Below, in pieces: positions 11,736-64,000 of a stretch of 64,000 nt of DNA (the first letter of the stretch is position 1; each line of letters opens with the position of its first letter). Source of the DNA: Tubulanus polymorphus (taxonomy: Eukaryota > Nemertea > Palaeonemertea > Tubulaniformes > Tubulanidae); the NCBI RefSeq assembly GCF_964204645.1, contig NC_134026.1:14970450-15034449 (forward strand), read 5' to 3'. A model generated the notes under the pieces. The model saw only the letters and a program-made list of their open reading frames with translations, was not told where the DNA came from and did no database searches. The position numbers and the translations under genes are program-made.

Positions 11736-11759
11736 ATATTATTAATGGATTAAAATAAG

Positions 11760-27592: not shown

Positions 27593-27744
27593 AGTAATTG
27601 GGAATATGGGGGTTCATACCAAAGGTCGAAGGGTCGAACTCATAAAAGATAAAAAATAAATTCTTGCACGCTCGAATTTATTTTTTATATTTTACTCACT
27701 TGCCCCTTCAACCTTTGTTATGAACCCCCATATTCCCAATTACT
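27593..27744. repeat. Palindromic terminal repeat of copy A
   Basis: Begins AGTAATTGGGAATATGGGGG and ends with the exact inverse CCCCCATATTCCCAATTACT. Inside are a second inverted pair (AAAAAATAAATTC / GAATTTATTTTTTA) and diverged AAAGGTCGAAGGG / CCCTTCAACCTTTG arms. The outer end at 27593 abuts host sequence GTCAGC. The right end abuts subterminal sequence with ATATGAATA, as in the other copies but in opposite orientation. Confidence 0.8.
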
Positions 27745-27824
27745 CCTAATAATATTCATATATATGAATAACATATAAATGAATAACTTCTAAAATGAAT
27801 TTTAATAAAAAATTTGATATTAAA

Positions 27825-30800: not shown

Positions 30801-30955
30801 AGAAGATAAGTTTGAATCCTGATGATGATAAAAGATATATTTTAGATGATGGTATACACACAGTTGCTTATGGTTGCAATTTAGATGAATACTTAAAGTT
30901 TAAAAGAGAAGAAACAAGAGAGAATGAGATTATGAAAAGGATTCTAGCATGTTAA
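27825..30955 (+). pseudogene. PolB pseudogene with large internal deletions (copy A)
   Basis: Same subfamily as copy C. Start ATGGAAGCAAATAAG at 27825. Zinc fingers, the N-terminal block (28077-28436 open), CFLWTIISCLHP (28738 on), then a cut: the exonuclease region from the EndoVII-like block to motif A is mostly lost (29540-29640), NNLYG.AMM at 29818, motif B (LMNNAFYGKTENI) at 30318, and a deletion from the codons for LAAVK to those for LKHHFDF (30465-30485) that removed motif C with the intein. The C-terminal tail is intact (KYILDDGIHTVAYGC-type end at 30955). It cannot encode an active polymerase. Confidence 0.85.
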
Positions 30956-30984
30956 TCAAATTTTAATAAAAATATGTATTATAA

Positions 30985-31338
30985 ATGGAGAGTAAACAAG
31001 TACACAGTGAGAACAACAAATCATTTCTAGATAGAATCAAAGATACTACAAATGCTAAATCAGTAGATTATAAATTTAAAAAGTTAACAGAATTAACACT
31101 TCATAAGATATATTTAATTACAAATATTGACACAGTTTCTAACAAATATGGAGATAAATTAGTTATCCACTTAGAATATGAAGGATTAAAAGGAAATACA
31201 TATAAATTCAGAACATATTTATCAGATGGATTTCATAGATTATCAAGTGAAGATTTAGAAGAATTATGTTCTGGCGATTTCTATTTCATATATGAAGGTA
31301 AGAATGAAAAAGGGCATCATGAAATTGATTTCGAATAA
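30985..31338 (+). CDS. OB-like single-strand DNA-binding protein (copy A, 117 aa)
   Basis: An intact frame starting TAAATGG, 29 bp after PolB. Core: YLITNIDTVSNKYGDKLVIHLEY, then TYKFRTYLSDGFHRLSSEDLEEL and a HHEIDFE end. Small proteins with 'KYG.K..V.L' and a short 'LP/LSD' block are common in Polinton-like elements and resemble an OB fold. Binding of single-stranded DNA displaced during protein-primed replication is the probable role (inference). The 40 N-terminal residues are polar and may be flexible. Confidence 0.6.
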   Translation: MESKQVHSENNKSFLDRIKDTTNAKSVDYKFKKLTELTLHKIYLITNIDTVSNKYGDKLVIHLEYEGLKGNTYKFRTYLSDGFHRLSSEDLEELCSGDFYFIYEGKNEKGHHEIDFE

Positions 31339-31354
31339 AAAATATGTAAAATAA

Positions 31355-32112
31355 ATGGTAGAATAAAAGAATACAGAATATTTGTTGATTCAAGAAGACT
31401 GGCAAATTATAAATCACATAATTTACTAGTACAATTAGATAGAGAATTTTAAAAATGCGTAGATTTAAAATTAGTAAATATTAGTTTATGTATCTCATTT
31501 TACAATATATCGGATAAATCTATTGGACATAGAGTCTTTTAATTCATGACAGAAATAAGAATAGATGGTTTCATCTTTATCTTAAACCAGGATTATATAA
31601 TTTAGAAACATTAGCTCAAGAAATTAATAAAAGAGCACAGGTAGAAAATGGGTGCATCTGCTGGATTTGGATTAAGACTTATTAAAAGTGATAGCTCTGA
31701 TAAAGTAAGAATAAAATTAGGCAATGAAGATCAGCATCAATTTCCAGTTAAAAAACCTTTAGCTAAAATTTTAGGAATAACCCCGGATGTAAGGATACGT
31801 AATGCTGATGCTACACCAAACTTAATGCCTTTTACGCATTTTTATATTTATTGCAATTTGATTGATCCTACAAAAACATTTGAAGCAACTAAAGATACAA
31901 TTTGTAATTCTGGTTTATTGAATATTTTACCATTGAAGAATGTTAAAGAATTTGGAACACAAATAAATTATAATTTAGCTGAGTGTGATTTCAAACCATG
32001 CATTCCTCAATTTAATAATTTTAGATTTGAAATTAGAAATTATAATGGATATTTAATTGATTTGAATAACTCTCATGTAATTCATGAATTAGTTATAAGA
32101 TGTAAAGAGTAA
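31355..32112 (+). pseudogene. Penton-like protein, several lesions (copy A)
   Basis: Start TAAATGG, but codon 4 is TAA (Leu in other copies). Further lesions near 31450 and 31640 (frameshifts around LNKRAQ). The last 154 codons (31648-32112) are open and run through FGLRLIKSDSSDK, KKPLAKILGITPD, PFTHFYIYCNLIDP, NILPLKNVKEFGTQINYN and ELVIRCKE. This is the most complete view of the C-terminal half in this subfamily. A jelly-roll capsid vertex protein is the likely identity. Confidence 0.65.
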
Positions 32113-32128
32113 TTTCTTTGATATATAA

Positions 32129-32473
32129 ATGAATATAACTGTTGGACCGAGTATATGTTTTGGGTTTGATTTTAAACATGGTAAAGAAATGAGAATTAAA
32201 CTAAATAATATAATTACTGATATTAAAAGTAAATCATTTAACAATGCATCAATGATTAATAAAGAAAATTATAATATCGAAAAGGTAATTGATTTAATCA
32301 AAACATCTTTTGAATATTATGAATTAAATGAAGATGGAATTATTGATGATATTAAAAACATATTATCTAAAATATATGATAATCATAAAAGTAGTAATGA
32401 AATAAATGTTGAATTAATCATAAATAACATAACTAAATATTTTGAAGATGGTAATTTTTTGATAAATAAATGA
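32129..32473 (+). CDS. Hypothetical 114-aa protein (copy A)
   Basis: Homologue of the 118-aa protein of element B (shared MNITVGPSICFGFDFK, NVELIINNITKYF.DGNF). Polar, helical in the second half, without Cys pairs or a membrane segment. Starts TAAATG 16 bp after the penton-like gene. Its stop TGA overlaps the start of the next gene (ATGA). Function unknown; its fixed place after the penton-like gene in both subfamilies suggests a virion or assembly role. Confidence 0.6.
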   Translation: MNITVGPSICFGFDFKHGKEMRIKLNNIITDIKSKSFNNASMINKENYNIEKVIDLIKTSFEYYELNEDGIIDDIKNILSKIYDNHKSSNEINVELIINNITKYFEDGNFLINK

Positions 32474-32690
32474 GCGATAATAAGTGGATAATAATTGGAT
32501 TATATAATGGAGCATTATTATCAGTGGGAACTGTTGGATACAAAATGGTATTTAAAAAGTATTTAGAATGGGCAGTATTAATGTTGATAGATTTGATATC
32601 AATGATATTTTAAAATTTACGTTGGCAGTTACTTTATCTAATTTAACTATTGATTATATAGAAAAACAAAAATACATTCCTCCTATATAA
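32470..32690 (+). pseudogene. 74-codon membrane gene, one-base deletion (copy A)
   Basis: ATG overlaps the preceding stop. The first 25 codons (SDNKWIIIGLYNGALLSVGTV) are read correctly with Trp at codon 6; a one-base loss in an A-run near 32550 then shifts the frame, and the remainder matches the gene of element B in another frame. The protein would have an N-terminal membrane segment. Length 221 nt against 222 in B. Confidence 0.55.
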
Positions 32691-32714
32691 ATGCATAATT
32701 TTTTTGTTAAATAA

Positions 32715-33137
32715 ATGGTATCTGTAATTATAGCTATTATAGGATCGGCAATTGTTATCGCTTTAGCATTTACTGGTGGTGGTTATTTATTTAAGCATAT
32801 TGATAAAAATGGTTCATTATCAGAACAGAAAAGACATAATTTAGCATTAGAAAAATATAATAAAGCAGCGGAAGAATACAGAGAAAAGAGACAAAACTAT
32901 ATTGATTATATTAACAAAAAATTATATGATCACAAGATTTCACATAGAGATTTTCAATCAGTCGATGATGCAATGAGTTTATATAACGCAGTAACAAATA
33001 AAGAAAAATTACATCTATATAAACCTAAATTATCAGATTATTATACACCAAGTAAAGAACAACAGAAATATGAAATGATTTGGATTTTAGGTGGAACAGT
33101 TATTGTTATATTTGTTGCATATAAATTTACTAATTAA
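32715..33137 (+). CDS. 140-aa protein with two membrane segments (copy A)
   Basis: Intact and the same length as its homologue in element B. Hydrophobic N-terminal segment (residues ~3-27, IIAIIGSAIVIALAFTGGGYLF) and C-terminal segment (~118-137, WILGGTVIVIFVAYKF) flank a charged, helical middle with QKRHNLALEKYNKAAEEYREKRQ. No known family. The two anchors suggest an element-encoded membrane protein. Starts TAAATGG. Confidence 0.65.
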   Translation: MVSVIIAIIGSAIVIALAFTGGGYLFKHIDKNGSLSEQKRHNLALEKYNKAAEEYREKRQNYIDYINKKLYDHKISHRDFQSVDDAMSLYNAVTNKEKLHLYKPKLSDYYTPSKEQQKYEMIWILGGTVIVIFVAYKFTN

Positions 33138-33162
33138 TTATTTATTATTTTTTGTTAAATAA

Positions 33163-33591
33163 ATGGATGATAAAGTTGATAATATTGATATTATTCCTCA
33201 TGATATCAGTAAAACTAAATTAAAATCGTATTTGGAAAAACAAATATTAGAATTTGAAAATGATTTAAAAGTTTAAAAGAAAAAATATTTAAAAAGTGAA
33301 ATTATATATTATTTTTTTATTAGTGGTTCAGTTACAATTAGTTCTGTAATAACATTTTTAGCAATATTCTCACCATTAACACCTTTAGCTATATCAATTG
33401 GTGTGTTAGGATTTAGTTCAAGTGTTTTAACCGGAATAAGTTCAAAATTAAATATAAAAAAGTAATAAAGAAAAAATAATATAAAAGAAATTAATAAATT
33501 GAAGAATACATTAGATTATAGTATTAGTTTAAACGGTAATACAACAGTTGAAGAACAAGATAAATTATTAAAAGAATTAATAAATTATTAA
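33163..33591 (+). pseudogene. 144-aa membrane gene with stop codons (copy A)
   Basis: Homologue of the 144-aa protein of element B. In-frame TAA near codon 38 and further lesions near 33463-33475. The hydrophobic middle (SGSVTISSVITFLAIFSPL and IGVLGFSSSVLTG) is retained. Starts TAAATGG. Confidence 0.6.
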
Positions 33592-33607
33592 TTTTTTTAG
33601 TATATAA

Positions 33608-34904
33608 ATGGGGTTTCCAAAAGCTTTCCAATATAATAAATAGAATTAAATATAATATGCCTACAATAGATTTTGATAAGAATATTACATATAAAGATTT
33701 AGTTTTAAATTCATTAGTTAATTTAGAAATTTATGTTACTGAAACACAGTTTTTTATTTCTAAAATGGAAAATATATTTAATGCATATGAAGTTACTTTT
33801 ACTCGAGATGAATATCATATACATGAAGTAAAATCTAATATGAAATATTGGCAGAATCAATTAAATTTTGCTGTTTATTGTGCAACAACAGGGTGTGGTA
33901 TAAGTTGGAACAATCATCTTAATAACTTAGATAAAAATTTGTCTTATTCAGATTTAAAATTCATTCATACAATACTTAGATTTCACACATATTTTCAAGT
34001 CAGAATTATATTAAATGAATTACAATGCCCTTTGCCTGGATGTAAATATTTTAAAGAATTGGATAATAATATTAATCTATCTAATTTTGATAAAATATGT
34101 AATGAATTTAATATAAATATTAATTCCGATTTTAGAGCGCATGGTAAATTGCAAGGTATTGGTGAACAGTGTGAAATATAAAGCATTGATTATATGCATA
34201 GAATTTCAGCTTATCATAATTATAAAATTGATAATAATAATGGTTGGATTAATTTCATTTTAGAAAATAGTGAAGGTTTTACAAAATCAGGTATACAAAG
34301 AATAAATCAATCTATAAGAACATATTTAATTTGTATATTAGGTGCACAAGTTGAAACAAGATCCCCAATAGTTGGAAATGATAGTACTTCATTTGATGCA
34401 CAGAAACAATTTAAAGTATTATTTGAAGATTCAATTCATAATGATAAAAATAGATCGATTCCAGAAAATATAGTCAGGTACAGAAATTATTCAGATAATT
34501 CTCATGTAAGATTAAATTATTGTATAGGTCCTAATTTATTGATTATTTCTAATGATTTAATATTAAAAATGGGAAATATAATTGGTTACAATAATTTGAT
34601 TAAAACTGCAACAATACATAATAAGTTTGGAATAAATGATATAAATAAGAAAATTATTACCGCTCCAAAATTAATGGAAGGTGAAAAAATTAAAAAACAT
34701 ATTCAATCAACTGAAACTAAAACTAAGAATATTGAATTAAATAATGATTATAAATTAAAAGATTACAATACATCAGAAAATATAAAAACTGATATTATTC
34801 AACATGAAATAATAAAAACCAATAATGATAATAAATCACATGAAAATGCTAAATTGACTATAACTTGTATAGGAATTATAATAGGAGGAATATTATATTT
34901 TTAA
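33608..34904 (+). pseudogene. 433-aa protein homologue with at least two stops (copy A)
   Basis: Start TAAATGGGG; early lesions near 33638 and a TAA at 34179-34181 break the frame. Open parts (33657-34181, 34194-34904) match element B very closely (MKYWQNQLNFAVYCATTGCG, GIQRINQSIRTYLICILGAQ, TSFDAQKQFKVLFEDSIHND). The last residues form a membrane segment (LTITCIGIIIGGILYF). Confidence 0.7.
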
Positions 34905-34926
34905 TTTTAATTTTTATATGATATAA

Positions 34927-36195
34927 ATGGATGTAGAAGGTGGAGAAGATATTCCAATGGAAGACATGGGAAATAATAATGATGGGTATAATGATGATGA
35001 TTATGATGATGCTGAAACTAATATTGTTGGTGATGATGGAACAGCATATAGTTCTAATTTAGCAGATAGTGGTTCTAAAGCCCCATCAACAGAGGAGTTT
35101 GATAAAAAACTAGATCGAGAATAAATCCTGAAAATGAAAATCCAGATTTAGTAAAACAAAGATTAGATCATAATGAATATATTTATAAATTCAAACCTGT
35201 ATTTGAAAGATCTGGGTATAAAATAAATGATAAAGGTGCCGAACGTTTAGTAGGAGATTTAAAACTAAAAGTTAAATATCATTATCATTTGGATGGGGAT
35301 TATTATATTGATATAACTAATAAAAGTACAAAACTAAATAAACTATTAGCAGAATCAACTTTGAGAAAATTAGAAACATTTAGAATTAAAAGAATAAATA
35401 ATACCTGGTAGTTATGAAACAACTGATGTTACACAACAAGAAAGAGATGATAATATAACAGACTTTAGTGAAAGAATTGATGATTTATTTGAAACAATCA
35501 ATAATAATTTAGAAACAGAAACAACTTCTAAACAGAATATAACTTCCAAAACTAGTAAATTTAAATCAAATAAAGTTCCAACTGAAAAACTTATACCGAA
35601 TGGATTACTTGATGCAACAGGTCAATAATTAGAAGATTTAAATTTATTTTCTGATAAAGCAATTAGAGAAATTATTAGTACAAGACTAGCAGCTGATAGT
35701 ATTGCGCATGATAAAAGTATAAGAGATTTTAAAATTAGATTTTTAGAAAAAGAATTATCTGATAAATATAAAGAAACAGATCAATTAAAGTCTGATTTAG
35801 AACGACAAGTGATTGATGAAATAGAATATAGGCAAAAAGAATTATGTTTAGAAAAAGAAATTGATAATTTAAAAGATAATTTAGAAGTACAGAAAGAAGA
35901 AATTAAATAATTATTAAAATCATATGATTATTGTATTAATAGATTAAAAGTTGTTGTTAAGGATTTAATAATAAAACCAGATTCTAATATATCATTGAAT
36001 GATAGAATAAAATTATTATTGAAGTTAGAAGGAATAACAATTCTTTCAATTTTAACACCTGTAACTATGGTATTTACAACAATAGGTTTAGCTATTTCTA
36101 ATTCATTAAAATCTGCGCCAAATCCTAATAAACCACCGGATAAACCTCCGAATAATAATTCTATACAAGATTAAGTTAAGGATGGTTTAAAAAAA
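34927..36195 (+). pseudogene. 478-aa protein homologue, multiple stops, 3'-truncated (copy A)
   Basis: Starts TAAATGGATGTAGAAGG. Open to 35124 with an acidic N-terminal region, then several stops (35124, near 35410, 35626, 35908). Coiled-coil part (KELSDKYKETDQLKSDLERQ) and the first membrane segment (ITILSILTPVTMVFTTIGLA) are recognisable. It is cut at ~36195 before the second hydrophobic region, which is also the 3' limit of copy A; capsid, integrase and ATPase genes of this copy are missing. Confidence 0.7.
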
Positions 36196-36322
36196 TTAAA
36201 TCTATGGGATATCAAAATATCTATGGGAATTATCTATTTCTTCACAGAAAACCCTATTGAAATTCGCGTGATTATTATTATTTTTTTCCCCTTTTCCACA
36301 TAGTTTTTGTTAAAAGTGTAAA
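36196..36322. other. Host repeat sequence between copy A and element B
   Basis: No gene. It holds ATCTATGGGATATC-like direct repeats and half a hairpin unit (CTTCACAGAAAACCCTATTG) of the type at 26876-27040. It ends next to the target duplication of element B. Confidence 0.5.
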
Positions 36323-38151: not shown

Positions 38152-38760
38152 TTAAATAAATTCATATTTAAATGGGTGTTGTAATCTAAATAGTAATTTT
38201 GATCTTTTAATATTTTTCAACTTATCCATATATTCATTATGTAAATCATGTGGAATAATATCATTTTCCTCAAGTGCATTTTTCATCGATTTTCTATCTT
38301 TATTGTAGAATAAAACTAGAAATCTAATGTTTTCTCTAAAGTCTTTAACAATTGAATTATATTTTTGATTTAAAACCCAAGTTGTTATCCCAAAATGTCT
38401 CCCAGAGAAAGCTAAATAACATAACTCACTTTCTCTAATTTTAGAATCATGTAAATTTGCGCAATCATCTATGATAAATAATGTATTTGATCCTTTATAA
38501 ATATCAATTGCTATTTTTATACAATTATCTAAATTTTCTTTTACTGTTTTAGGATCTAATATAATAAATTTATTATTCCTAGTAATATTTTTATCATAAG
38601 TTTGATTAAATTCATACGTTGGGCAAAATAATACTATATTATCAAAATAGTTTTCATAAACAGTTTCTAATAAATTTAATATGAAATAAGTTTTTCCACA
38701 ATTTGTTACGCCAGATATTAACATATTATGAGGCTCAAATATAAATAATTCTTTATTCAT
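38152..38760 (-). CDS. Packaging ATPase (A32/FtsK-HerA type, 202 aa)
   Basis: P-loop ATPase of the kind that drives DNA into preformed capsids in Polintons, virophages and large DNA viruses. Walker A GVTNCGKT at residues 17-24; Walker B LFIIDDC with D98/D99; then FSGRHFGITTWVLNQ (sensor region with Arg and Gln) at ~118-132 and a basic C-terminus. Length is normal for Polinton ATPases. It directly abuts the integrase gene (0 bp; ATG context ATATAAATG). It acts in the nucleus or wherever virions assemble. Reading frame and motifs are intact. Confidence 0.92.
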   Translation of the reverse strand: MNKELFIFEPHNMLISGVTNCGKTYFILNLLETVYENYFDNIVLFCPTYEFNQTYDKNITRNNKFIILDPKTVKENLDNCIKIAIDIYKGSNTLFIIDDCANLHDSKIRESELCYLAFSGRHFGITTWVLNQKYNSIVKDFRENIRFLVLFYNKDRKSMKNALEENDIIPHDLHNEYMDKLKNIKRSKLLFRLQHPFKYEFI

Positions 38761-39891
38761 TTATATATTTTTAATTTTACTTGATAGTATCCATTCATTG
38801 AATTTATCTGGCCATCCAACCCATTTTACTAAAGAATATTTTTTTCTTTTAACAGTTTTTGTTTTTAATACTTTTTCAATTTTATATTCTTGTTCTAGAT
38901 TTTCAGTAGTTAAACTTAATTCTTCTTCGTAAAAGTAGCCATCAACTTCTTCACCATCTAAATCTTCTAATTTATAGACATATGGTTTTGTTGTTATTAC
39001 CTTTTTTATTTTGTATATTTCTCTAGTAAAATTTCGATCGTATCCTTTGTCAAATATCTTTTTATACTTAGAAATTCTAACATTTTGACCAACTTTAAAT
39101 TTAGGTTCACCAAAATCATCAACAAGAAATGCTCCATATAAATTATTCCAAACAATTTCAGCATTTTCAGGTTTTCTAGCATCAATAGGTTTCATTCCAA
39201 TAGAAGAATGATAAGAATTATTATATCCTTCTATAAATTTTGGTAAAACATCAATCCATTTATAAGTATTATTTGCTGTAAAATATTTCCACATTCTTCT
39301 TGTTCTTAATGTTCTATTAAATCGTTCAACAACTGCTGCTTTTTTATCTGATTTTGTTGAAAAATATTTAATATTATGAAAATCTAAAAGTCCATGAACT
39401 AATGAATTATCAAATTCTTTTCCATCATCAAATTGTATTTTTTCTGGTTTTAGTTTACCACCTGAAAGAAATTTTCTTAAAACATTTGATGTTTGTACAG
39501 CATCTTTTCTATAAAGTGGGAAACTCCATACATAACGACTAAAAATATCAATTATATTCAATAACCACCAATAATCATCATTATCTTTCTTAACATTTTT
39601 CATATCAATTAAATCTCCTTGCCACTGTTGATCTACATAACTTACCATAGTTTTACGAGTTTTATATTTTCTAACAATTTTTTTATGTGTTGTATATGTT
39701 GGTTGTTCTAACATAAATTCATTTATATCTTTATATTTAACTAAATTTTGTGGGATTATCTTATCTAATTTATCTTGTTTTACTTTACGCCATATATTTT
39801 TAGTAGAAGAATAAGCAACCGAACTCTCAGGGTTGTAATATAAATTTCTTAAATATTGTTCTTTAGTATTAGGAGTTTTTTTACCACTCAT
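38761..39891 (-). CDS. Polinton integrase with C-terminal chromodomain (376 aa)
   Basis: Retroviral-type integrase that would join element ends to target DNA with a 6-bp stagger. The N-terminal part has EQYLRNLYYNPES; the core has acidic residues in QQWQGDLIDM (D93), QFDDGKEF (D155/D156) and AVVERFNRTL (E189), then NNSYHSSIGMKP. An SH3-like part follows (PKFKVGQNVRISKYK), and a chromodomain ends the protein (YKIEKVLKTKT, LVKWVGWPDKFNEWI; residues ~330-375), which may steer integration to modified chromatin. The intact version here explains the truncated copies Z and D. Start context TATAAATG. Confidence 0.93.
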   Translation of the reverse strand: MSGKKTPNTKEQYLRNLYYNPESSVAYSSTKNIWRKVKQDKLDKIIPQNLVKYKDINEFMLEQPTYTTHKKIVRKYKTRKTMVSYVDQQWQGDLIDMKNVKKDNDDYWWLLNIIDIFSRYVWSFPLYRKDAVQTSNVLRKFLSGGKLKPEKIQFDDGKEFDNSLVHGLLDFHNIKYFSTKSDKKAAVVERFNRTLRTRRMWKYFTANNTYKWIDVLPKFIEGYNNSYHSSIGMKPIDARKPENAEIVWNNLYGAFLVDDFGEPKFKVGQNVRISKYKKIFDKGYDRNFTREIYKIKKVITTKPYVYKLEDLDGEEVDGYFYEEELSLTTENLEQEYKIEKVLKTKTVKRKKYSLVKWVGWPDKFNEWILSSKIKNI

Positions 39892-39921: not shown

Positions 39922-41169
39922 CTAATATTGAATACTATCTAATTGAGAATTTACAATATTTAATTGTGCGTCAGATATAATATAAATGTGCATTTTAAAA
40001 TTTTTGATTCCTTTATTCTTTTTCATAAATAATTGTATTCCATCTTTAGTGTTCTGTAGTTTTTTTCCAGAACCATGTAATAAGTTATCTTCAGTTGTTC
40101 TAAAATCTAACCATAATGCATATTTATTACCGGTATAATAATCAATTTGATTAATGTTACAATTTTCAGATGATTTCACTTTTTCATTCATAAAATGTTT
40201 TCTAATTTCTGGCCATTGATCAATCATTCTCATTCCTTGACAAAATATTTTATTCGCTATTCCTTCGATAGTTATTTCTACTTTTGTTATTTCAGGATTA
40301 TAATAATTATCAACATTTATTGCACCATTAGAATATGTTGCAATAGTAAAAAATATTAATATACCTTTAATAGATCTTCTAGGAAAGTTAATATTCTCAT
40401 TAATTATTTCATCATTTGCATTAATAGTTACAGTTTTAAATTTATCAATATAATCATATAATAATGAAAATCCTTGATTGTATTGAGTTTGAATTGTGCT
40501 AGCAATATTTTCATTAGTTATTGTGTTATATTCTAAACATATATTCGATAATTTATAACTCATATCTTTAACAACGCTAGATAATACAATTTCATTTACA
40601 GGAGCAAATGTTATCTCAAATATAATATCTTCTTGAATTGCGTATTTATATAAAGGTGCATTATTATTTATCAATTCAAAGTCTAATGGAATTTTATATT
40701 TGCTTCCATAAATCTTTTTAATCAAATTATCTGTGGCACGAGTTACTACTGCATTATTGGCTTCAGATCTTAATTTATTATGGTTTTCCGATTGGATGCC
40801 TTGAAATATCATATTATTTCTATTTTCTTTAGTTAACCATAAATCTTTATAATGCATAAATAAATTATAATCATCTAATGAGAAAACTGTTTCCGGACCA
40901 ATCTTTATTGTTAACTTTTTAATCAAATATCTTCCAACATTATCAACAACATAATTGTTATCATGGCCAGTTACTTTTATATCGGCTGATAAATAAATAC
41001 TGTTTGGAACATAAAAAGTATTTTGTGTTAATCGAGGGATTCTAACATATAAAGTTTCATCGGGATTAATATTTGAAGGGTTATGAGTAATTATATGATG
41101 TGATCTTTCTGCTTTAATAGCATTAGATATTCTATGATTCTTCGAAGGACTTATATAACTCCCACTCAT
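39922..41169 (-). CDS. Major capsid protein, double jelly-roll type (415 aa)
   Basis: Pattern typical of Polinton/adintovirus capsid proteins: an early block DETLYVRIPRLTQNTFYVP, NVGRYLIKKLTIKIG, SLDDYNLFMHYKDLW, then NMIFQGIQSE and IPLDFELINNNAPLYKYA.QEDI, followed by ITFAPVNEIV. Jelly roll 1 spans roughly residues 35-215, jelly roll 2 roughly 225-400 (NFPRRSIKGILIFFT, VEITIEGIANKIFCQGM, YALWLDFRTTEDN). The protein would form the hexon-like capsomers. Length is close to other Polinton capsid proteins. No damage is seen. The name rests on pattern recognition; a structure prediction would settle it. Confidence 0.82.
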   Translation of the reverse strand: MSGSYISPSKNHRISNAIKAERSHHIITHNPSNINPDETLYVRIPRLTQNTFYVPNSIYLSADIKVTGHDNNYVVDNVGRYLIKKLTIKIGPETVFSLDDYNLFMHYKDLWLTKENRNNMIFQGIQSENHNKLRSEANNAVVTRATDNLIKKIYGSKYKIPLDFELINNNAPLYKYAIQEDIIFEITFAPVNEIVLSSVVKDMSYKLSNICLEYNTITNENIASTIQTQYNQGFSLLYDYIDKFKTVTINANDEIINENINFPRRSIKGILIFFTIATYSNGAINVDNYYNPEITKVEITIEGIANKIFCQGMRMIDQWPEIRKHFMNEKVKSSENCNINQIDYYTGNKYALWLDFRTTEDNLLHGSGKKLQNTKDGIQLFMKKNKGIKNFKMHIYIISDAQLNIVNSQLDSIQY

Positions 41170-46307: not shown

Positions 46308-47606
46308 ACGGATGAGAAGATAGCATGCGAAATTTGTGGTGAACTTCTAAGAAAAAGTAATATGGCTCGACATATGAAAAAACATGATGAAAATTATAAA
46401 CCCCCTAAAATAAACTGTCCAAAATGTAATAAATTATTCTCAAGAAATTATGTTAAAAAACATTCAGAGAAGTGTAGAATTAATGGCGCAACGGCTAATG
46501 TTGATAGTAATTCTGCTGAAGTTGAACCTGAAGTTATTTGGAAAACACCTTTCTTATTCTATGATAAGGATAATATAAAAGATCATTTCTGTGAGCCTTG
46601 TCAAGTAAAATATAGCCCTGAAAATATAGAAGATTGGGAGAATCATCAATTTCGTAAAGCACATATAGATAAAATTTCTAATAAATTTGAAACTGAATTC
46701 AATGAAAGAAAAAATAATTTATTAGAAAAAATAAAATATGAGAAAACGTTACCAGATAATAAAGAAACAGTTGAAAAGTTAGAAAAACAATATAATGAAT
46801 TAACAAGAAAAACATATTATTGTAAATATTGTAAATTGATTATTACAACAAGTAATTCAAATCTACATAATAGAACAATAAAACATAAAGAAAACGTAAG
46901 AAAATACCAAGAGCTTAATGAAGATCTATTACCAAGAAATTATAAACAAAAATGCCCACAATGTAGTTATGCGACCTTAAGGCAAGAAGGTACTGTGTTA
47001 TTTTGTGTTGAATGTGGATGGCAAAAGAATTTATGGGGTGAAGAAAAAACTAGAGATTTTCTCATAGAACCAAAATTAAATTATCTAGATGAAATTTTTA
47101 AAATATTTTCTATAGAAGATCATACACCAGAATATATGCAATGGCTTGAAAAAATGAAAATAATAGAAAATAAAAATGGTGAAATAACTAAAAAAGATAT
47201 TATAAAAACAATTATTCCACCAACATTTAACACAAAACAAAAGAAAATGTATTTATATTTATTATTTAACGATTATTATGAAAAACCTAAATTAACAGAA
47301 GAAGATATGGAAAATATAAAAAAAATATTTAAACAAATATTAATGTATCATTTGGAAAATAGAATAACAGATTCAATAAATTATGAATTCTTTTTAAATA
47401 AGATTGTAAATTATTTAAACCTAGATATTATAATTCCATTTGATGAATTAACAAACAAAAAGAAACAAAGAGAGCGAGATGAAATGTGGAACAAGATAGA
47501 ACTTTATTTAAATGAGAAAAATGGAATGGAAGAAGAACCTGAACAATTAAATGAAAATGAAGAAGCCAATAGTGATTTCGAGTTTGATGATATAGATCCA
47601 TTTTAA
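46308..47606 (+). CDS. Zinc-finger protein (414 aa from ATG 46362; ancestral start probably 46308)
   Basis: Several Cys/His units: CEIC...H...H upstream of the first ATG, CPKCNKLF..H...C (C19/C22 from ATG), FCEPCQVKY..H, YYCKYCKLI...H...H and a ribbon CPQC...FCVECGW. The frame is open upstream to a stop at 46305-46307; the codon where other genes have TAAATGG reads TAAACGG (46308-46310). Use of 46362 would lose the first finger's Cys pair. The second half is helical (YLYLLFNDYYEKPKL, FDELTNKKKQRERDEM) with an acidic tail. DNA or RNA binding is likely. Its stop overlaps the PolB stop by 4 bp (convergent). Homologous fragments are in copy G. Confidence 0.75.
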   Translation, partial: TDEKIACEICGELLRKSNMARHMKKHDENYKPPKINCPKCNKLFSRNYVKKHSEKCRINGATANVDSNSAEVEPEVIWKTPFLFYDKDNIKDHFCEPCQVKYSPENIEDWENHQFRKAHIDKISNKFETEFNERKNNLLEKIKYEKTLPDNKETVEKLEKQYNELTRKTYYCKYCKLIITTSNSNLHNRTIKHKENVRKYQELNEDLLPRNYKQKCPQCSYATLRQEGTVLFCVECGWQKNLWGEEKTRDFLIEPKLNYLDEIFKIFSIEDHTPEYMQWLEKMKIIENKNGEITKKDIIKTIIPPTFNTKQKKMYLYLLFNDYYEKPKLTEEDMENIKKIFKQILMYHLENRITDSINYEFFLNKIVNYLNLDIIIPFDELTNKKKQRERDEMWNKIELYLNEKNGMEEEPEQLNENEEANSDFEFDDIDPF

Positions 47607-50600
47607 TAACCATAAGGTAATGTTTTTATACCATCATCTGAAATATGCCTTTTATCATCAAATGGATTTAAACTAGTTTTTTCAACTTCATTAATGTACA
47701 TCTCATGATCTTCTGATCTTAAACAATTCATCTTGTGTTTCATTACAATTGATTTATATAAACACTTTATATAATCTTGAAATTCTATATGTTTATCAAC
47801 CACATGTTTTGTTATTCCTTTTAACTTTTTAGCTTCATGATCTTTTGTTCTGTAACTATACATTTTACTTCTTATCCCAACAAATTCAGTCATTTCATCA
47901 CCTCCTAATTCATCTTTAAATTTACAAGGAATCTTTTTATTATCATTGCTAAATAGTTCATGATCTTTAGGATAATTGCTAAAATCAAAATGATGTTTTA
48001 ATGTTTTTAAGTCTTTTGTTATGTCATTTGTCTTGATTTTTAGTATGTACGCATCCGTATTTTTTTGGATTAATGGGAACCCAGAATTGAATGTTCCATC
48101 ATCTGTTGATAAATCATAAACATAGTCAGTTGGGTTATATATTTCAAATAAATCTTTAACTTCTTCAGTTAAATCTTTTTCTACATGCCTTAAATTAAAG
48201 CAATTTGGTTTAGATTTAATCAATCCAATATTCATATTGAAGCCTAATGAACTGCATAACACATTTAACCCACTTATTGCACATTTTCCATTCTGTGCAA
48301 AGGTTATCGTTTTATCCTTTATAAATTTTTTAGTACCATCGGCTGCGTAGAACCCAATGAAGAACCATTTTCTAAGATTATATTCTGAATTTAATATATA
48401 ATCTGGTACTATTTTTTCTTTAGTTGAAGTATTACTTTTCACTATTGCATGAATATAGAATTCATCATTATATTTTATAGCAAAATCTTTAGGATTATTT
48501 ACAAGTATTCTATAAACCGCGGATGATTTCATAACATCCATGATTCTAAATGTTTTATGTGAATAAACTTCTTCACAGAATTTCTTAATTCTTTCTAATA
48601 ATTTTAAGTCTTGATTGCATAAATACCAACAATATTTATTACCCCAAACATATTTATACACACCTGCTGAACCATCACCCATGAAAAATCCTTTGATAAA
48701 ATATTCTTTTTCTTCCAATGTTTCGGGTTCTATATTATAAATATTATCAATTATTTCATCAAATGACATATGATTCATTCTTGGGAAAAATCTTTTATGT
48801 AATAATTCATCTCCAATTTTTATATCAGTTGGTTTTATTTCATCACCATTTCGTTTAATTAAACTGTGGTCTTCAGTAACATCTACAAATCCTAATTTAG
48901 TTCTAACTCTATAGATTTTCTTATTTGTTTTATGTCTAATAATATTCTTTAATTTTTTCCATCCATTTCTTGTCCAAACATCTATTAAACCATTTATTTG
49001 TATTAGTTCTTTTTCACCATATGAAATATAAGATTTATTTTGATTAGGAATTATTTCTGAAATTCTTCTAATTAATATTTGGTTATTGTATTTTAATAAT
49101 ATTGGGGTGTCAGCTGTTACAGAATCGAAGTATAGAATTTCTATATGTTTTTCCCCAAACAATGGTTGTAATACATTGTAATAAAAATCATACATTAATA
49201 ATTTTGATATTTCTAAAACTGTTGAACCAATGAAAATGGGTTTATTAAATTTCATTGACGTTCTTTTTAATTTTACTGCTGTTAAATAATCTTCAAATCT
49301 TTTATTTCCTAAATGTCTAGGACTTGATTGTAGGTGTCTCAATCGTTCAGAATTATTTACTAATTCAATATCATTTCTATTTCTAATATTTTCACATGTT
49401 TTACCATAAAAACTATTGTTCATTAATTTGAAGAAATCTTTTTCAAAATCTGTTTTTGATATGGTTCTCTGTTGAGTATTGAAATCTATATATTTTTCTA
49501 ACCACTTTGATTGATTAAATTCAATATATCTATGTACTTTCTTTAATTTCATTCCTTGTTTTAGATAAAATTTTAACATTCTATAATGAACAATATAATT
49601 ATATTTATTATTTTGAGTAAGTATTAATTTTTCTGTAAAAACATGATCTTTCGGTTTTATTTTCTTCTGGTATTCACTTAAATAACTATCATCTACAGTT
49701 AAATGTTCTGGGCAATAAGGTAAGTTTCTTGTTTTAAACTTTATGTTATCAGGATATTCTAAATCAACTACAAAGAAATAACCAATTGGTGCTTCATCTT
49801 CTAAACTCATAATTGCGCTTTCCCAATTAGTTTTATCATCATTTTCAACTTCTGTTAATATAAAATTTTTATATGGTTGAGGTTGCATCATTGCCCAACC
49901 ATATAAATTATTGGCGTCAATATATAATAATTTATATTCATCATTTGCTTTAAAATACCTATCTCCCATAACACCACTAATTCCACCTCTAATTGAGTTT
50001 TCAAATAATAAAACCATATCTGGTTCTTTTAATAAATCTAATTCTACATTTGTATATTTTAAACCACATTGCCAGGTTAAACCAGGACTTGAATAACAAT
50101 AACAAGGATCAACATTAAAATGATTCAAATTAACTTCTCTAAATTTTTCAAATATGTCAGCTAATATCATAACATCTGATTTTAAATATAAATCAACTAA
50201 TTCACCATGATTTTTCATCTTAAAATGGTTCCAAATATTTAATGTTCTATCAAAAACTTCGTCTTTCACATACTCCTCTTTTAATTTATCATAAAATTGA
50301 TCTTTTAATAATTCTGTTACATTAAAATCATCATGTGTTTTATAAAATGAATAAGGAATTGCGCCTTTATATCTCAGTAATTTAAAATCTTGTTCATTTG
50401 GATAATAATATCGAGTTATAACAAAATCATTATCAACTAAACTTTTTGATAAATTATCTAATGAACTTGCTAGAAATCTATAAGAATCTAAAAATCTAAT
50501 GCAACCAAATTGAAATGAAATATAATTTTCAGATGTTTTAGCTAATAGTTTAAAATCATATTTTCTTACATTTGCTTCATTCATAGCATTATATTCTTCT

Positions 50601-52666
50601 ATTTCTTGATTAATTGCACCCAATTTTCCTGATAATTGTTTTATAAATAGATGGGTATCATATCCTGATAAATTATGAAATAATATTGGTACAAAATTTA
50701 CTTTTTTAGCTTGTAAATTGCAATCTTCATGAGCAGCTCCACGATATTTTGAATTCAAATGATCATGATCTCTAACTCTTTTATCAAATGAATAAAAACG
50801 TTTTTCACAATAACAACAATGAGTTGCATAATTAAAATCAATTTCATCTTCTTTTGTCATAACTATTCTTTTATTTTTGTTTAATAATTTTGCAAAATCA
50901 CTTTCTAATTCAATAATTTTATCACAAAAATCATTAACTACATTTTCACCTCTAAAAGAAATATATTGACTTTCATATAATTCAGGATAATTTGATTTTA
51001 TGTAAATTCCATAAGCAGCAGCTCTTTGATGAACTTTTTTAATTGTATTTATAATTGGCGGGTCTTGTATTGTGTCTTCATTTAATTCATTTCCTTTATC
51101 CATTGATTTTAATAATTGCTTTTTGTTATATATTTCTTTTCTATCTTGATCAGTTAATTCTTTATTCAACGATTCAAAATCCCCATAAATTACAAATGGA
51201 ACAATATTTTTAAATTTATGATTAGTAAATTTCAATTTATAATCTTTTTCTGTTGGCATTATTAATTTACAAAAATCTTTATTATCACATAATTCTTTAT
51301 GTTTTAATAATGTATTCTCAGTCATAAATTTGGATAAACATTTTCTACATAGATAAATTTTATTATGATGATCACTTTCTGTTCTAAAGAATAAATCAAT
51401 TTGTTTTAACCACATATAATGTTCATTTTCATCTTTTTTGTAATATAACAAATCTATAGCATTTTCATCATCATAATATTCTGTTAAATATAAAGCTTCC
51501 AATGTATAATCTTTAATATTTTCACCTTTTGTCTTTGGTAATTGCATTAATTCGAATACATTTATTTTTAAATTATTAACTTTTTCTATTTTAGGAATCA
51601 TTTTTATAGTTACTGGATATTGATCAATTTTATATAATGTTTCATATTTCCGATAATCTGTTATTCTACAAACATTTTCCTGTGTTGGATGTAAACAACT
51701 AATAATTGACCATAGAAAACATTTATTATCTTCATTTTGAACATTTATTACTGCTTTTGTTGTAAACGGTAATTTGATATAACTTGATGCTTTCATATCC
51801 TTTTCTGTTGTAAAGTTTGAATCATTTTTAAACATTTTATTACTTTTTGATGTTTTATTCCTTTTTGTATTATAAACATTTAAATCTAAATATATAATTT
51901 CATTCAATGTTAAGCCAGAACCCTCAAAATATCTTTCTTCAATATGACGTTTAAATTCATTTAATATTTTTTCTAACTTCTCTTTTATTTGTGTTTTTGA
52001 AATTATTTCTTCAGAGTGTGTTTGAATATTATAATCCATTTTTTCTTCTGACTTTATAAAACTTACTTTCCCAGAGATACTAATTTTTGGATATTCAACA
52101 TCTGTTATCAAATCTAGTATTTTTTCTATTATTTCATTAAATTTACTATAATCTTCTATTGTTGTACCTTTAAAAAATCTAAATATAATAGCTGCAGGAC
52201 CAATTTTACTATGTAATGTTTCTAAGATTTCAATTGTATCTTTTATTTCTAGTGAATCAATATAATTTCTAATATTTTCCATGTAAGGTTTATTTGAAAT
52301 GGATTTAGTTTTTGAAGTTGATTCTTTTACTTGTTGAGGTTTATCATCAAAATAATCTATTCCTAAAACATTATTTCTCAAATTTTGATGGTGTTTTTCT
52401 GTTTCGAGATGTTTATTATAATTCCTTTTTGTTATAAATTCATCACAAACTTCACATTTTATTTCATCCACATTCATATTTTCTAATCGTTCTTTTCTTT
52501 CAATGGAATTTTCTGGAGTTTCAAAATCTATAACATTTTTTATATGATTTGAAGATTTTTCATGTTTAGATTTATTAGATTTATCGATGTATTTTTTACA
52601 ATATTGACAATAATATTGATTTTTATTGATATTATTGTTTTCTAGTTGGTGTTCATTCTCCCCCAT
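47603..52666 (-). CDS. Protein-primed DNA polymerase B with in-frame intein (1687 aa; 1332 after splicing)
   Basis: Replicates the linear element using a protein primer. N-terminal zinc fingers (C20/C23; C71/C74), a KCFLWSII block (C316) with EHYMWLKQI (H416), a finger CRKC at 440-443, Exo I GDFES (D496/E498), a Cys/His EndoVII-like block (CYC 618-620, RVRDHDH 630-636, RGAAH 642-646, C649), Exo II HNLSGYD (D670), Exo III YLKSD (827-831), motif A YIDANNLYG (D917), motif B FFKLMNNSFYGK (~1078-1089), and motif C YFD/TD split by the intein at 1182-1536. The C-terminal tail is short. Start TAAATGGG. All key residues are present; activity would require splicing. No separate terminal protein gene is seen; it may lie in the N-terminal part. 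Confidence 0.93.
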   Translation of the reverse strand: MGENEHQLENNNINKNQYYCQYCKKYIDKSNKSKHEKSSNHIKNVIDFETPENSIERKERLENMNVDEIKCEVCDEFITKRNYNKHLETEKHHQNLRNNVLGIDYFDDKPQQVKESTSKTKSISNKPYMENIRNYIDSLEIKDTIEILETLHSKIGPAAIIFRFFKGTTIEDYSKFNEIIEKILDLITDVEYPKISISGKVSFIKSEEKMDYNIQTHSEEIISKTQIKEKLEKILNEFKRHIEERYFEGSGLTLNEIIYLDLNVYNTKRNKTSKSNKMFKNDSNFTTEKDMKASSYIKLPFTTKAVINVQNEDNKCFLWSIISCLHPTQENVCRITDYRKYETLYKIDQYPVTIKMIPKIEKVNNLKINVFELMQLPKTKGENIKDYTLEALYLTEYYDDENAIDLLYYKKDENEHYMWLKQIDLFFRTESDHHNKIYLCRKCLSKFMTENTLLKHKELCDNKDFCKLIMPTEKDYKLKFTNHKFKNIVPFVIYGDFESLNKELTDQDRKEIYNKKQLLKSMDKGNELNEDTIQDPPIINTIKKVHQRAAAYGIYIKSNYPELYESQYISFRGENVVNDFCDKIIELESDFAKLLNKNKRIVMTKEDEIDFNYATHCCYCEKRFYSFDKRVRDHDHLNSKYRGAAHEDCNLQAKKVNFVPILFHNLSGYDTHLFIKQLSGKLGAINQEIEEYNAMNEANVRKYDFKLLAKTSENYISFQFGCIRFLDSYRFLASSLDNLSKSLVDNDFVITRYYYPNEQDFKLLRYKGAIPYSFYKTHDDFNVTELLKDQFYDKLKEEYVKDEVFDRTLNIWNHFKMKNHGELVDLYLKSDVMILADIFEKFREVNLNHFNVDPCYCYSSPGLTWQCGLKYTNVELDLLKEPDMVLLFENSIRGGISGVMGDRYFKANDEYKLLYIDANNLYGWAMMQPQPYKNFILTEVENDDKTNWESAIMSLEDEAPIGYFFVVDLEYPDNIKFKTRNLPYCPEHLTVDDSYLSEYQKKIKPKDHVFTEKLILTQNNKYNYIVHYRMLKFYLKQGMKLKKVHRYIEFNQSKWLEKYIDFNTQQRTISKTDFEKDFFKLMNNSFYGKTCENIRNRNDIELVNNSERLRHLQSSPRHLGNKRFEDYLTAVKLKRTSMKFNKPIFIGSTVLEISKLLMYDFYYNVLQPLFGEKHIEILYFDSVTADTPILLKYNNQILIRRISEIIPNQNKSYISYGEKELIQINGLIDVWTRNGWKKLKNIIRHKTNKKIYRVRTKLGFVDVTEDHSLIKRNGDEIKPTDIKIGDELLHKRFFPRMNHMSFDEIIDNIYNIEPETLEEKEYFIKGFFMGDGSAGVYKYVWGNKYCWYLCNQDLKLLERIKKFCEEVYSHKTFRIMDVMKSSAVYRILVNNPKDFAIKYNDEFYIHAIVKSNTSTKEKIVPDYILNSEYNLRKWFFIGFYAADGTKKFIKDKTITFAQNGKCAISGLNVLCSSLGFNMNIGLIKSKPNCFNLRHVEKDLTEEVKDLFEIYNPTDYVYDLSTDDGTFNSGFPLIQKNTDAYILKIKTNDITKDLKTLKHHFDFSNYPKDHELFSNDNKKIPCKFKDELGGDEMTEFVGIRSKMYSYRTKDHEAKKLKGITKHVVDKHIEFQDYIKCLYKSIVMKHKMNCLRSEDHEMYINEVEKTSLNPFDDKRHISDDGIKTLPYGY
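48059..49123 (-). other. Intein with LAGLIDADG homing endonuclease in PolB motif C (355 aa)
   Basis: Host residues YFD end at 49124; the insert starts Ser-1 (SVTADTPILL, block A) and ends Asn-355 (FPLIQKN, block G) before TDAYILKIK, giving a continuous YFD-TD catalytic motif after removal. Block B is VTEDHSLI with T83/H86. The endonuclease motifs are FIKGFFMGDGS (D150) and FFIGFYAADGT (D262). The block F region is YVYDLSTDDGTFNSG. The residue before the terminal Asn is Lys instead of the usual His, which is tolerated in some inteins. The first extein residue is Thr, a valid nucleophile. The insertion site is that of the well-known polymerase inteins of archaea. Splicing and homing are inferred. 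Confidence 0.92.
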
Positions 52667-54930: not shown

Positions 54931-55047
54931 TTATTTAAGAGAAAAATTAAACAGTTTATAAAATATTTGCTAGTTTTTAATTAAATATTTTATAATCATT
55001 TTAAAGATATTAAACTTTTAAATGATTAAATCAAATAACAATTAAAT

Positions 55048-55818: not shown

Positions 55819-55827
55819 ATGCTAAAC

Positions 55828-60765: not shown

Positions 60766-61130
60766 AGAAATGAAAATGTATTTATATCTATTATTTAACG
60801 ATTATTATAAAAAACCTAAATTAACAGAAGAAGATATGGAAAATATAAAAGAAACATTCAAAAAAATATTAAGATATTATGTGGATAATAGAATAACAGA
60901 TTCAATTAATTATGAATTCTGTTTGAATAAGGTTGTAAATTTTTTTAACATAGATATTATAATTCCATTTGATGAATTAACGAACAAAAAGAAACAAAGC
61001 AAGCTACATGAAATGTGGAATAATATAGAACTTTATTTAAATGGAAAAATTAAATGGAAGAACCTAAACAATTAAATCAAAATGAAGAAACCAGTAGTTA
61101 TTTCGAGTATGATGATCTTGATTTTATGGT

Positions 61131-64000
61131 TTAATGGCCATAAGGTAATGTTTTTATTCCATCATCCAAAATATATCTCTTATCGTCGAATGGATTTAAA
61201 CTAGTTTTTTCAACTTCATTAATGTACATCTCGTGATCTTCTGATCTTAAACAATTCATTTTGTGTTTCATTACAATTGAGTTGTATAAACACTTTATAT
61301 AATCTTAAAATTCTATATGTTTGTCAACCACATGTTTTGTTATTCCTTTTAACTTTTTAGCTTCATGATCTTTTGTTCTATAACTATACATTTTACTTCT
61401 TATCCCAACAAATTCAATCATTTCATCACCCCCTAATTCATCTTTAAACTTACCAGGCTGCTTTTTATTGTCATTGCTAAATAATTCACGATCTTTTGGA
61501 TAATTAATAAAATCAAAATGATGTTTTAATGTTTTTAAGTCTTTTGTAATGTCATTTGTCTTGATTTTTAGTATGTACGAATCGGTATTTTTTGGATTAA
61601 TGGGAACCCAGAATTGAATGTTCCATCTTCAGTTGATAAATCATAAACATAATCTGTTGGGTTATATATTTCAAATAAATCTCTAACTTCTACAGTTAAA
61701 TCTTTTTCTGTATGCCTTAAATTAAAACAATTTGGTTTAGATTTAATTAATTCAATATTCATATTAAATCCTAATGAATTACGTAGGATATTTAGCCCAC
61801 TTATTGCACATTTTCCTTTTTGCGCAAATGTTATTACTAGAGAACTCGTAAATTTTTTAGTACCATCTGCTGCGTAGAATCCAATGAAGAACCATTTTCT
61901 AAGATTATATTCTGCATTTAATACATAATCTGGTACTATCTTTTCTTTGGTTGAAGTATTACTTTTCACTATTGTATGAATATAGAATTCATCATTATAT
62001 TTTATAGCAAAATCCTTAGGATTATTCACATGTATTCTATAACATTGTGATGATCTATGATTTTAAAAACTTTGTGCGAATAAACTTCTTCACAGTATTT
62101 CTTTATTCTTTCTAATAATTTCAAATGTTGATTGCATAAATACCAACAATATTTATTACCCCAAACATAATTATACACACCTGCCGAACCATCTCCCATA
62201 ACAAATCCATTGATAAAATATTCTTTTTCTTCTAATATTTCGGGTTCAATATTATAAATATTATCAATTATTTAATCAAATGACATATGATTCATTCTTT
62301 GGAAAAATCTTTTATGTAATAATTCATCTCCAATTTTTATATCAGTTGGTTTTATTTCATCACCATTTCGTTTAATTAAACTATGATCTTCTGCAATATC
62401 TACAAACCCTAATTTAGTTCTAACTCTATAGATTTTCTAATTTGTTTTATGCCTAATAATATTCTTTAATTTTTTCCATATATTTCTTGTCCAAACATCC
62501 ATTAATCCATTTATTTGTATTGATTCCTTTTTACCATATGAAATATAACGTTCATTTTGCTTTGGAATTATTTCTGAAATTCTTCCTATCAACATTCTAT
62601 CATTACATTTTAATAATATTGGGGTGTCAGCTGTAACAGAATCAAAATATAATACTTCAATATGTTTTTCCCCAAAAAGTGGTTGTAAAACATTATAATA
62701 AAAATCATACATTAATAATTTTGGTATTTCTAAAACAGTTGAACCAATGAATATAGGTTTATTAAATTTCATTGACGTTTTTTTTAATTTTACCGCGGTT
62801 AAATAATCTTCAAATCTTTTATTTCCTAAATGTCTAGGACTTGATTGTAAATGTCTAAATCGTTCAGAATTATTTACTAATTCAATATCATTTCTATTGC
62901 TAATATTTTTACATGTTTTTCCATAAAAACTATCATTCATTAATTTGAAGAAATCTTTTTCAAAATCTGTTTTAGATATGGTTCTCTGTTGAGTATTAAA
63001 ATCTATATATTTTTCTAACCACTTCGATTAAATTCAATATATCTATGTACTTTATTTAATTTCATTCCTTGTTTTAGATAAAGTTTTAACATTCTATAAT
63101 GAACAATATAATTATATTTATTATTTGGAGTAAGTATTAATTTTTCTGTAAAAACATGATCTTAAATAACTATCATCTACGGCTAAATGTTCTGGGCAAT
63201 TTGGTAAGTTTCTTGTTTAAAACTTTATGTTATCAGGATATTCTAAATGAACTACAAAGAAATAACCAATTGTGCTTCATCTTCTAAACTCATAATTGCG
63301 CTTTCCCAATTAGTTTTATCATCATTTTCAATTTCTGTTAATATAAAATTTGTGTACGGTTGAGGTTGCATCATTACCCAACCATATAAATTATCGGCGT
63401 CAATATATACTAATTTATATTAATCATTTGCTTTAAAATGTCTCCCATATCACCACTAATTCCACCTCTAATTGATTTTTCAAATAATAAAACCATGTCT
63501 GGTTCTTTTAATAAATCTAATTCTACATTTGTATATTTTAACCCACATTGCCAGGTTAAACCAGGACTTGAATAACAATAACAGGGATCAACATTAAAAT
63601 GATTCAAATTAACTTCTCTATAATTTTCAAATATGTCAGCCAATATCATAACATCTGATTTTAAGTATAAATCTACTAATTCACCATGATTTTTTATCTT
63701 AAGGTGATTCCAAATATCTAATGTTCTATTAAAAACTTCATCTTTCACATACTCCTTTTAATTGATCATACAATTGTTCTTTTAATAATTCTGTTACATT
63801 AAAATCATCATGTGTTTTATAAAATGAATAAGGAATTGCGCCTTTATATCTCAATAATTTAAAATCTTGTTCATTTGGATAATAATGTCGAGTTATTATA
63901 AAATCATAATCAACTAAACTTTTTGCTATATTATCTAATGAACTTGCTAGAAATCTATAAGGATCTAAAAATCTAATGCAACCAAATTGAAATGAAAAAC
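61131..64000 (-). pseudogene. PolB with decayed intein (copy G), continues past the window
   Basis: Closest to the PolB of element B. From the right edge: Exo/TPR region (RFLASSLDN), YLKSDVMILADIFEN, GLTWQCGLKYTNVEL, motif A (YLYG.VMMQPQ) with losses near 63430, motif B (LMNDSFYGKTCKNI) at ~62930, the intein, and the C-terminal tail (SLNPFDDKRYI) to the stop at 61131. Frameshifts and stops near 63040, 63170, 63230, 63280, 62440 and 61300. The N-terminal part lies outside the window. Confidence 0.85.
61587..62640 (-). other. Decayed intein in PolB of copy G
   Basis: Starts SVTADTPILLKCN after YFD and ends before TDSYILKIK with FPLIQK-type residues in a shifted frame. LAGLIDADG motif 1 reads GFVMGDGSAG and motif 2 GFYAADGTKK. 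Length 1054 nt, broken by a stop near 62275, a stop or frameshift near 62440 and a deletion near 62045. Same insertion site as in copies B and C. Confidence 0.85.

Follow-up and report, generated by a model that had tools for sequence, protein, structure and literature searches.

A putative homing intein at the catalytic motif of a Polinton DNA polymerase in a probable animal chromosome

Introduction

The stretch of 64,000 nucleotides analysed here in full (the window; bases 14,970,450-15,034,449 of the 31.9-Mb contig C2) contains a Polinton (Maverick) element, copy D, whose DNA polymerase (PolB) gene carries 355 additional codons within its catalytic motif. Is this insert a complete intein with its own homing endonuclease, as a first-pass annotation of the DNA had proposed, and does it move among the Polintons of what may be an animal genome? 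According to a passage of one review, metazoan genomes contain no inteins (PMC8529194), and the relevant part of a 2018 survey assigns nuclear eukaryotic inteins to fungi and a few unicellular groups (PMC5784728). The same part of that survey places viral inteins in large DNA viruses, including the Iridoviridae of animals, for which 14 inteins were counted, and names DNA polymerases and ribonucleotide reductases among the intein carriers (PMC5784728).

Results

The PolB of copy D is encoded on the reverse strand, as are all copy D features given below, by one open frame of 1687 codons (47603..52666), in which the insert occupies 48059..49123, corresponding to residues 1182-1536 of the 1687-aa product. 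These borders coincide exactly with those of the first-pass annotation. The protein runs from ...HIEILYFD through the insert, SVTADTPIL...GFPLIQKN, to TDAYILK..., and the insert, bordered by HIEILYFD and TDAYILK, thus parts YFD from the TD of the catalytic motif YxDTD. It is in frame, has exact borders and is absent from relatives, the natural empty PolBs including one in the same genome.

Four lines of evidence (profiles, homologues, fold and residues) supported a full-length intein with a two-motif LAGLIDADG endonuclease. The residues of a class-1 intein were all present, namely a Ser or Cys nucleophile at position 1, TxxH in block B, a terminal Asn, and Ser, Thr or Cys at position +1. Block A with the nucleophile S1 (SVTADTPILLKY) lies at 49088..49123, block B (V-T83-E-D-H86) at 48857..48916, block F (YVYDLSTDDGTFNSG) at 48080..48124, and block G with the +1 residue (PLIQKN/T, the slash marking the border) at 48056..48076. 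The first LAGLIDADG motif, KGFFMGDG with the acidic D150, is at 48671..48697 and has a fold match to I-DmoI; the second, IGFYAADG with the acidic D262, is at 48335..48361. S1, T83, H86, D150, D262, V335, Y336 and D337 of block F, and N355 of block G were each identical in 25/25 aligned rows. The predicted model of the copy D intein combined a Hint fold with a two-fold LAGLIDADG fold. Protein-level constraint shows in the ratios of nonsynonymous to synonymous divergence (dN/dS) of the three intein-copy pairs in the window (0.24, 0.29 and 0.38), values that the broken copies push up. Function of the polymerase would, on sound grounds, be expected to depend on splicing of the intein.

The penultimate residue of the copy D intein is Lys, not the usual, though non-obligatory, His. 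Among 117 inteins extracted by a script whose rules favour the expected letters at both ends (start at S or C, at most four residues after D; end at N or Q before T, S or C, with D, N or E within six residues), the residue before the last Asn was Lys in 71, His in 34 and another in 12, and a His in this place thus does not define intein membership. A reading of block G without His as a sign of decay was rejected, since Lys is the majority residue of the family.

The insertion point, between Y-x-D and T-D of the polymerase C motif, is the pol-c allele of PolB inteins. The proposal that archaeal and large-virus PolB inteins use this same site is supported by the passage on Mimivirus, whose PolB intein is inserted at YGD/TDS (PMC549080), and by the presence of Thr at +1 in 116 of the 117 extracted inteins, among them P0068, which sits in a topoisomerase-type protein. 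The sole row with another residue at +1 (P0038) had been mis-cut by the script and was left out of the tree, which therefore held 116 rows. In this quick, midpoint-rooted tree, the four full-length inteins of PF03175 polymerases formed one clade (support 100) adjoining 16 inteins of PF00136 polymerases (support 90). PF03175 gave no match to the copy D PolB (P0001) at E<=0.1, but did match two related sequences, P0002 (E 5e-17) and the polymerase of the empty copy L024 (E 4e-14). The copy D intein was 64% identical to that of P0002, 50% to that of P0004 and 38% to the Mimivirus intein, and identity over the N-terminal extein (N-extein) was 54% to P0002 and 45% to P0004. We read these inteins as a probable Polinton-specific lineage, kin to large-virus-type polymerase inteins and apparently often gained and lost.

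An empty site was present in the same genome. Locus L024, at the start of contig C20, was found by chance among 21 sampled stretches (L010-L030), the only one of them with a PolB extein or intein match at E<=1e-5, and contains a polymerase open reading frame (ORF) that runs for 1,130 codons up to the contig edge without a stop and has an uninterrupted YFDTDS. Its DNA aligned with copy A, an intein-bearing Polinton at the left of the window, over window positions 10515-7638 (93.2%) and 6584-5411 (87.5%); since these alignments end at most 2 bp from the borders of the copy A intein (7637-6583), L024 represents a clean empty site for the insertion in A. Synonymous divergence (dS) between the two was 0.20 in the N-extein and 0.41 in the C-terminal extein (C-extein). 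Relatives of this polymerase, some with an intein and some lacking one, occur in this genome as well as beyond it, and the presence of both states among sister copies suggests movement between elements.

A tree of 119 of 121 Polinton-type polymerases, built by a quick method from the N-extein only, with long branches flagged and two sequences dropped for poor coverage, comprised 5 polymerases with an intein, 72 empty with Thr, 35 empty with Cys for Thr and 7 unclear. The intein label changed five times on this tree, all changes being forced by starred branches, which is as many as in shuffles (mean 5.0). A stricter site script classified the 121 polymerases as 4 occupied, 104 empty and 13 unclear; two of the five intein carriers in the tree, P0135 and P0157, end inside the intein. 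The nearest kin of copy D (P0122-P0124, 62-64% over the N-extein) are empty, and the N-exteins of P0004 (with intein) and P0133 (empty) are 95% identical. The 35 of 119 polymerases with catalytic Cys for Thr (DCD in 33 of 104) include close relatives of intein-bearing polymerases, such as P0133; substitution of the +1 residue would give the endonuclease a different target. Scanning IMG/VR with P0001 alone yielded nothing, and with alignment A3 two distant loci, both empty. Prokaryote genomes yielded five distant loci, in metagenome-assembled genomes (MAGs). The exteins abut in L005, L006 and L007 and the matched pieces are 21 bp apart in L004, so that these four loci leave no room for an intein-sized insert; in L003 the match ends before the intein site.

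Copies A and D are, to judge from their divergence, old relatives, with dS of 0.71-1.04 along the N-extein and 1.9 in the C-extein. Within the intein, dS was 0.27 in blocks A-B, 0.19 in the endonuclease and 0.63 in the last third. A change-point scan of A against D delimited a similar stretch at 49221-48416 (91.9% identity inside vs 74.3% outside), with a gain of 71.2 vs at most 23.9 in 40 block shuffles. The corresponding stretch for A against copy E, the intein-bearing Polinton at the right edge of the window, was 49218-48353 (gain 35.9 vs at most 17.1 in shuffles), and for D against E the scan delimited only a brief stretch of lower similarity (48323-48219), with a gain barely above the shuffles (15.6 vs 15.1). 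Three-way sites uniting D+E, D+A and A+E numbered, respectively, 245, 33 and 17 in the upstream extein; 17, 10 and 4 in the 141 bp before the intein; 15, 16 and 14 in intein blocks A-B; 14, 25 and 10 in the endonuclease; 56, 12 and 16 in the last third of the intein; and 76, 11 and 13 in the C-extein. The dip in dS, the change-point and the three-way sites together show that the front two thirds of the intein have passed between two old element lineages. Co-conversion of the ~98 bp before the intein, a possible reading of the change-point, was rejected: this stretch is simply conserved in D, A and the empty copy, and only its last 20 bp group A with D.

The assignment of the carrier to the Polintons was borne out by its kinship of PolB, by a retroviral-type integrase with a chromodomain-like end (38761..39891; PF00665, E 5e-9; PF00385, E 2e-4, below cut-off) and by an A32-like, packaging-type ATPase (38152..38760; PF04665 Pox_A32, E 2e-13). 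Together with a PF03175-type polymerase, protein-primed by sequence type, these genes identify the copy D element as a Polinton. A 415-aa ORF (39922..41169) may encode the major capsid protein (PF16903, Capsid_N, E 0.03, below cut-off), and the other ORFs of the element belong to no known family. No protease family (Ulp1-type sought) was found among the 20 window ORFs scanned. Comparison of the ends of copy D for terminal inverted repeats gave weak matches, the best of 113 columns at 65%.

At least five Polinton copies or pieces (A, C, B, D and E) lie in the window, in which only copy D has an unbroken polymerase frame. The PolB of copy A (6173..10955, reverse strand) is in broken frames, as is that of copy E (60768..64000, reverse strand), which includes the end of a neighbouring zinc-finger ORF, runs past the window edge and holds its intein at 62640-61589; the inteins of A and E, also broken in frame, are at the same place as in D. 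Copy B (27690..36198, forward strand, borders approximate) lacks the PolB stretch from ~140 bp before to ~45 bp after the intein site, and was rejected as an empty site because the deletion is wider than the intein. Copy C is a PolB fragment (21683..23336, forward strand) that ends ~225 bp before the site. Left of the window, L009:3501-7936 is an inverted near-copy of window 7648-12127 (98.7% over 4.5 kb), whose PolB stops 18 bp short of the insertion point and is joined to sequence of the ATPase gene. Upstream of the copy D PolB, a minisatellite of 24-bp units (29 overlapping registers) occupies 54947-55867. Beside it, a 102-bp Polinton C-extein piece (55820-55921; 95% to copy A and L024) starts ~9-11 bp past the insertion point. 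Breaks at most ~225 bp from the intein site thus occur in copies B, C and F (the left-flank copy in L009) and in the 102-bp PolB fragment; this clustering is not claimed as proof of cutting, since B and C break elsewhere too. The window gave no match to Rfam at the gathering threshold and none in a tRNA scan.

The view of the first-pass annotation that this is an animal genome appears likely, though it falls short of proof, on the basis of the large contig, CCCTAA arrays and a Ty3-type neighbour whose nearest named relatives are animal elements. The assembly comprises 267.8 Mb in 77 contigs, and long CCCTAA telomere-type arrays were present at 2/20 sampled contig starts (C10 and C8). Contig C77 (15.6 kb) was considered as a candidate mitochondrial genome and rejected on visual inspection of the ORFs in its first 10 kb. 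Among the 120 matches listed for the Ty3-type element (12588-15773), 11 carried an organism label: 8 animal (spider twice, flatworm three times, bee once and fish twice), 2 bacterial MAG and 1 with the label cut off; the nearest named relatives among these matches were animal elements. The broken Ty3-type retroelement has a higher GC content and is followed, within 12588-16689, by a 275-aa ORF with no Pfam match at E<=0.01. Near contig starts, 830-aa ORFs with common first 60 residues occur in L018, L023 (two), L026 and L028. That of L028 matches reverse transcriptase and, below threshold, GIY-YIG, a combination found in Penelope-like elements, and L026 holds CCCTAA arrays besides its ORF. An 802-aa ORF at L011:7105-9510 (Baculo_F, E 2.5e-6) perhaps belongs to an envelope-bearing retroelement.

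Discussion

We consider it highly likely, from the sequences compared, that copy D carries a canonical Ser/Asn class-1 intein with a double-motif LAGLIDADG endonuclease at the pol-c type site of a Polinton protein-primed PolB, in a eukaryotic and very probably animal chromosome, and we infer self-splicing and homing as its activities. Following the chemistry of the intein family, Ser1 would attack, the chain would be transferred to Thr+1, and cyclisation of Asn with ligation would rebuild YFDTDA. The precursor may thus splice itself after translation, restoring the polymerase motif YFDTD. The LAGLIDADG part may cut Polinton polymerase alleles that lack the intein, across these very motif codons, and the intein may spread when the break is repaired from an occupied copy. 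The Polinton element would, on this scheme, carry its own parasite.

Several observations weigh against this interpretation. The Pfam splicing model matched the intein below its cut-off, only 1/3 of the intein copies in the window (D) is open, and D and E share 94% identity in the N-extein against 90% in the intein. A whole-genome LAGLIDADG_3 search detected nothing at E<=0.001 and missed even the copy D intein, with 5/14 control genomes positive; since the intein scores too low for this profile at genome scale, the search cannot count copies. The exchange between A and D did not extend to the last third of the intein (48399-48059), where the two are 76.5% identical (dS 0.63). The 3' end of the tract inside the intein makes copy A a mosaic of two intein alleles, for which one simple homing event is insufficient, and a single homing event of the whole intein does not explain copy A. 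Furthermore, co-conversion of the flanks is hardly visible. Copy A sided with D at three sites and with the empty copy at one in the 20 bp before the insertion point (small numbers), and with the empty copy vs D at 3 vs 0 sites 21-50 bp upstream, 4 vs 2 at 51-100 bp, and 8-1, 26-2, 21-3 and 42-4 beyond 100 bp. Downstream, A sided with D at 0/5 informative sites in the first 20 bp, the successive bins being 5-0, 8-1, 2-0, 4-3, 4-1 and 40-2 in favour of the empty copy.

Such patterns can be accommodated in other ways. The intein may be a degenerate relic, active when acquired but now neither splicing nor homing, with all copies fossils and D merely still open. In favour of this reading, the window holds two broken intein copies out of three, D is surrounded by fragmentary elements, and copy A can have become a mosaic through ordinary gene conversion among repeats. 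We nevertheless hold this to be rather unlikely, as D retains its 1687-codon ORF and open neighbouring ORFs, its catalytic positions have the same letter as 24 other rows, and dN/dS is 0.24-0.38 even though raised by the broken copies. Exchange without homing is a stronger competitor, to which we give almost even credence. The intein would have been inherited vertically in Polintons with frequent loss, and the identity between A and D would stem from ectopic gene conversion between clustered repeats. The end of the tract inside the intein (48416) instead of at its 3' border, flank co-conversion of at most ~20 bp on one side and the location of the copies within 60 kb of one another all agree with this explanation. 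Moreover, intein identity to P0002 and P0004 (64% and 50%) roughly tracks N-extein identity (54% and 45%), suggesting that these inteins may be as old as the exteins. It is less easily reconciled with the position of the exchanged stretch, which is the intein front and endonuclease, no other stretch in the 5-kb gene being so marked; with the agreement of D and A at 3/4 informative sites (small numbers) over the 20 bp immediately preceding the insertion point; or with the scattering of intein rows among empty ones.

The host itself may be questioned. Polintons are found in many eukaryotes, and in a protist or alga, for example, Polintons with giant-virus-like inteins would be less surprising. 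Such a host is improbable in view of the 8/11 labelled Ty3-type matches, among those listed, that are animal, the Penelope-like ORF with its reverse transcriptase and sub-threshold GIY-YIG match, the CCCTAA arrays, and an assembly of 268 Mb in 77 contigs. Our confidence that the host is an animal is thus good but not final. An assembly or contamination artefact, of which there is no direct sign although the inverted near-copy in L009 (98.7%, 4.5 kb) is an error-prone kind of place, is more improbable still, given the 31.9-Mb contig, the three diverged intein copies in the window and the independent intein-bearing Polinton PolBs in other data sets.

On the premise of a self-splicing intein with an active endonuclease, a further step is tentative and on balance doubtful: the system may be, or may until recently have been, a natural homing gene drive among Polintons of an animal germ line, in which empty polymerase genes are cut at the catalytic motif, the intein is copied in, and transposition of the carrier depends on splicing in animal cells. 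Rearrangement scars near the site in empty or broken copies would then be failed repairs. If the host is truly an animal, these findings would extend the host range of protein splicing, offer a natural source of splicing and homing enzymes fit for animal cells, and provide a genome for the direct comparison of occupied and empty sites of one element.

The claim of the first-pass annotation that inteins are essentially undescribed in animals agrees with the cited parts of two papers (PMC8529194; PMC5784728), but nuclease insertions in Polinton polymerases had already been published and read as intein invasions. According to a passage citing Jeong et al. (2023), Polinton protein-primed PolBs (pPolBs) hold diverse homing endonuclease domains, suggesting intein invasions (PMC11071308), and an excerpt on Polinton-like viruses of protists mentions GIY-YIG and HNH endonucleases (PMC12220804). 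In the portions of the literature covered by our search, we found no account of an intein possessing splicing blocks, whether in a Polinton or in an animal genome. A nuclease insert in a Polinton polymerase is therefore not new, whereas a complete splicing intein there appears, against these portions, to be so.

The present intein resembles the pPolB nuclease insertions, as characterized in that passage, in its homing-type nuclease domain and in the polymerase family of its carrier (PMC11071308). With the intein of Mimivirus and other pol-c PolB inteins, as far as the excerpted description extends, it shares the Y-x-D/T-D site, S1...N, Thr at +1 and LAGLIDADG (PMC549080). The pol-c PolB inteins of large DNA viruses and archaea are also alike in mostly having Lys before the last Asn. 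The copy D intein differs from the Mimivirus-type pol-c inteins in its carrier, a PF03175-type PolB belonging to a chromosomal Polinton of a eukaryote. The Hint domain of Hedgehog cleaves and attaches cholesterol, without splicing and without an endonuclease. Inteins of Iridoviridae are found in viruses of animals and thus provide a precedent for splicing in animal cells, but these are free viruses, not a chromosomal element. The Polinton polymerase insertions of Jeong and co-workers in 2023 are reportedly HNH and VSR nucleases, in nematodes among others; in contrast to these, the insert of copy D combines a complete Hint splicing domain with a LAGLIDADG endonuclease at the catalytic motif.
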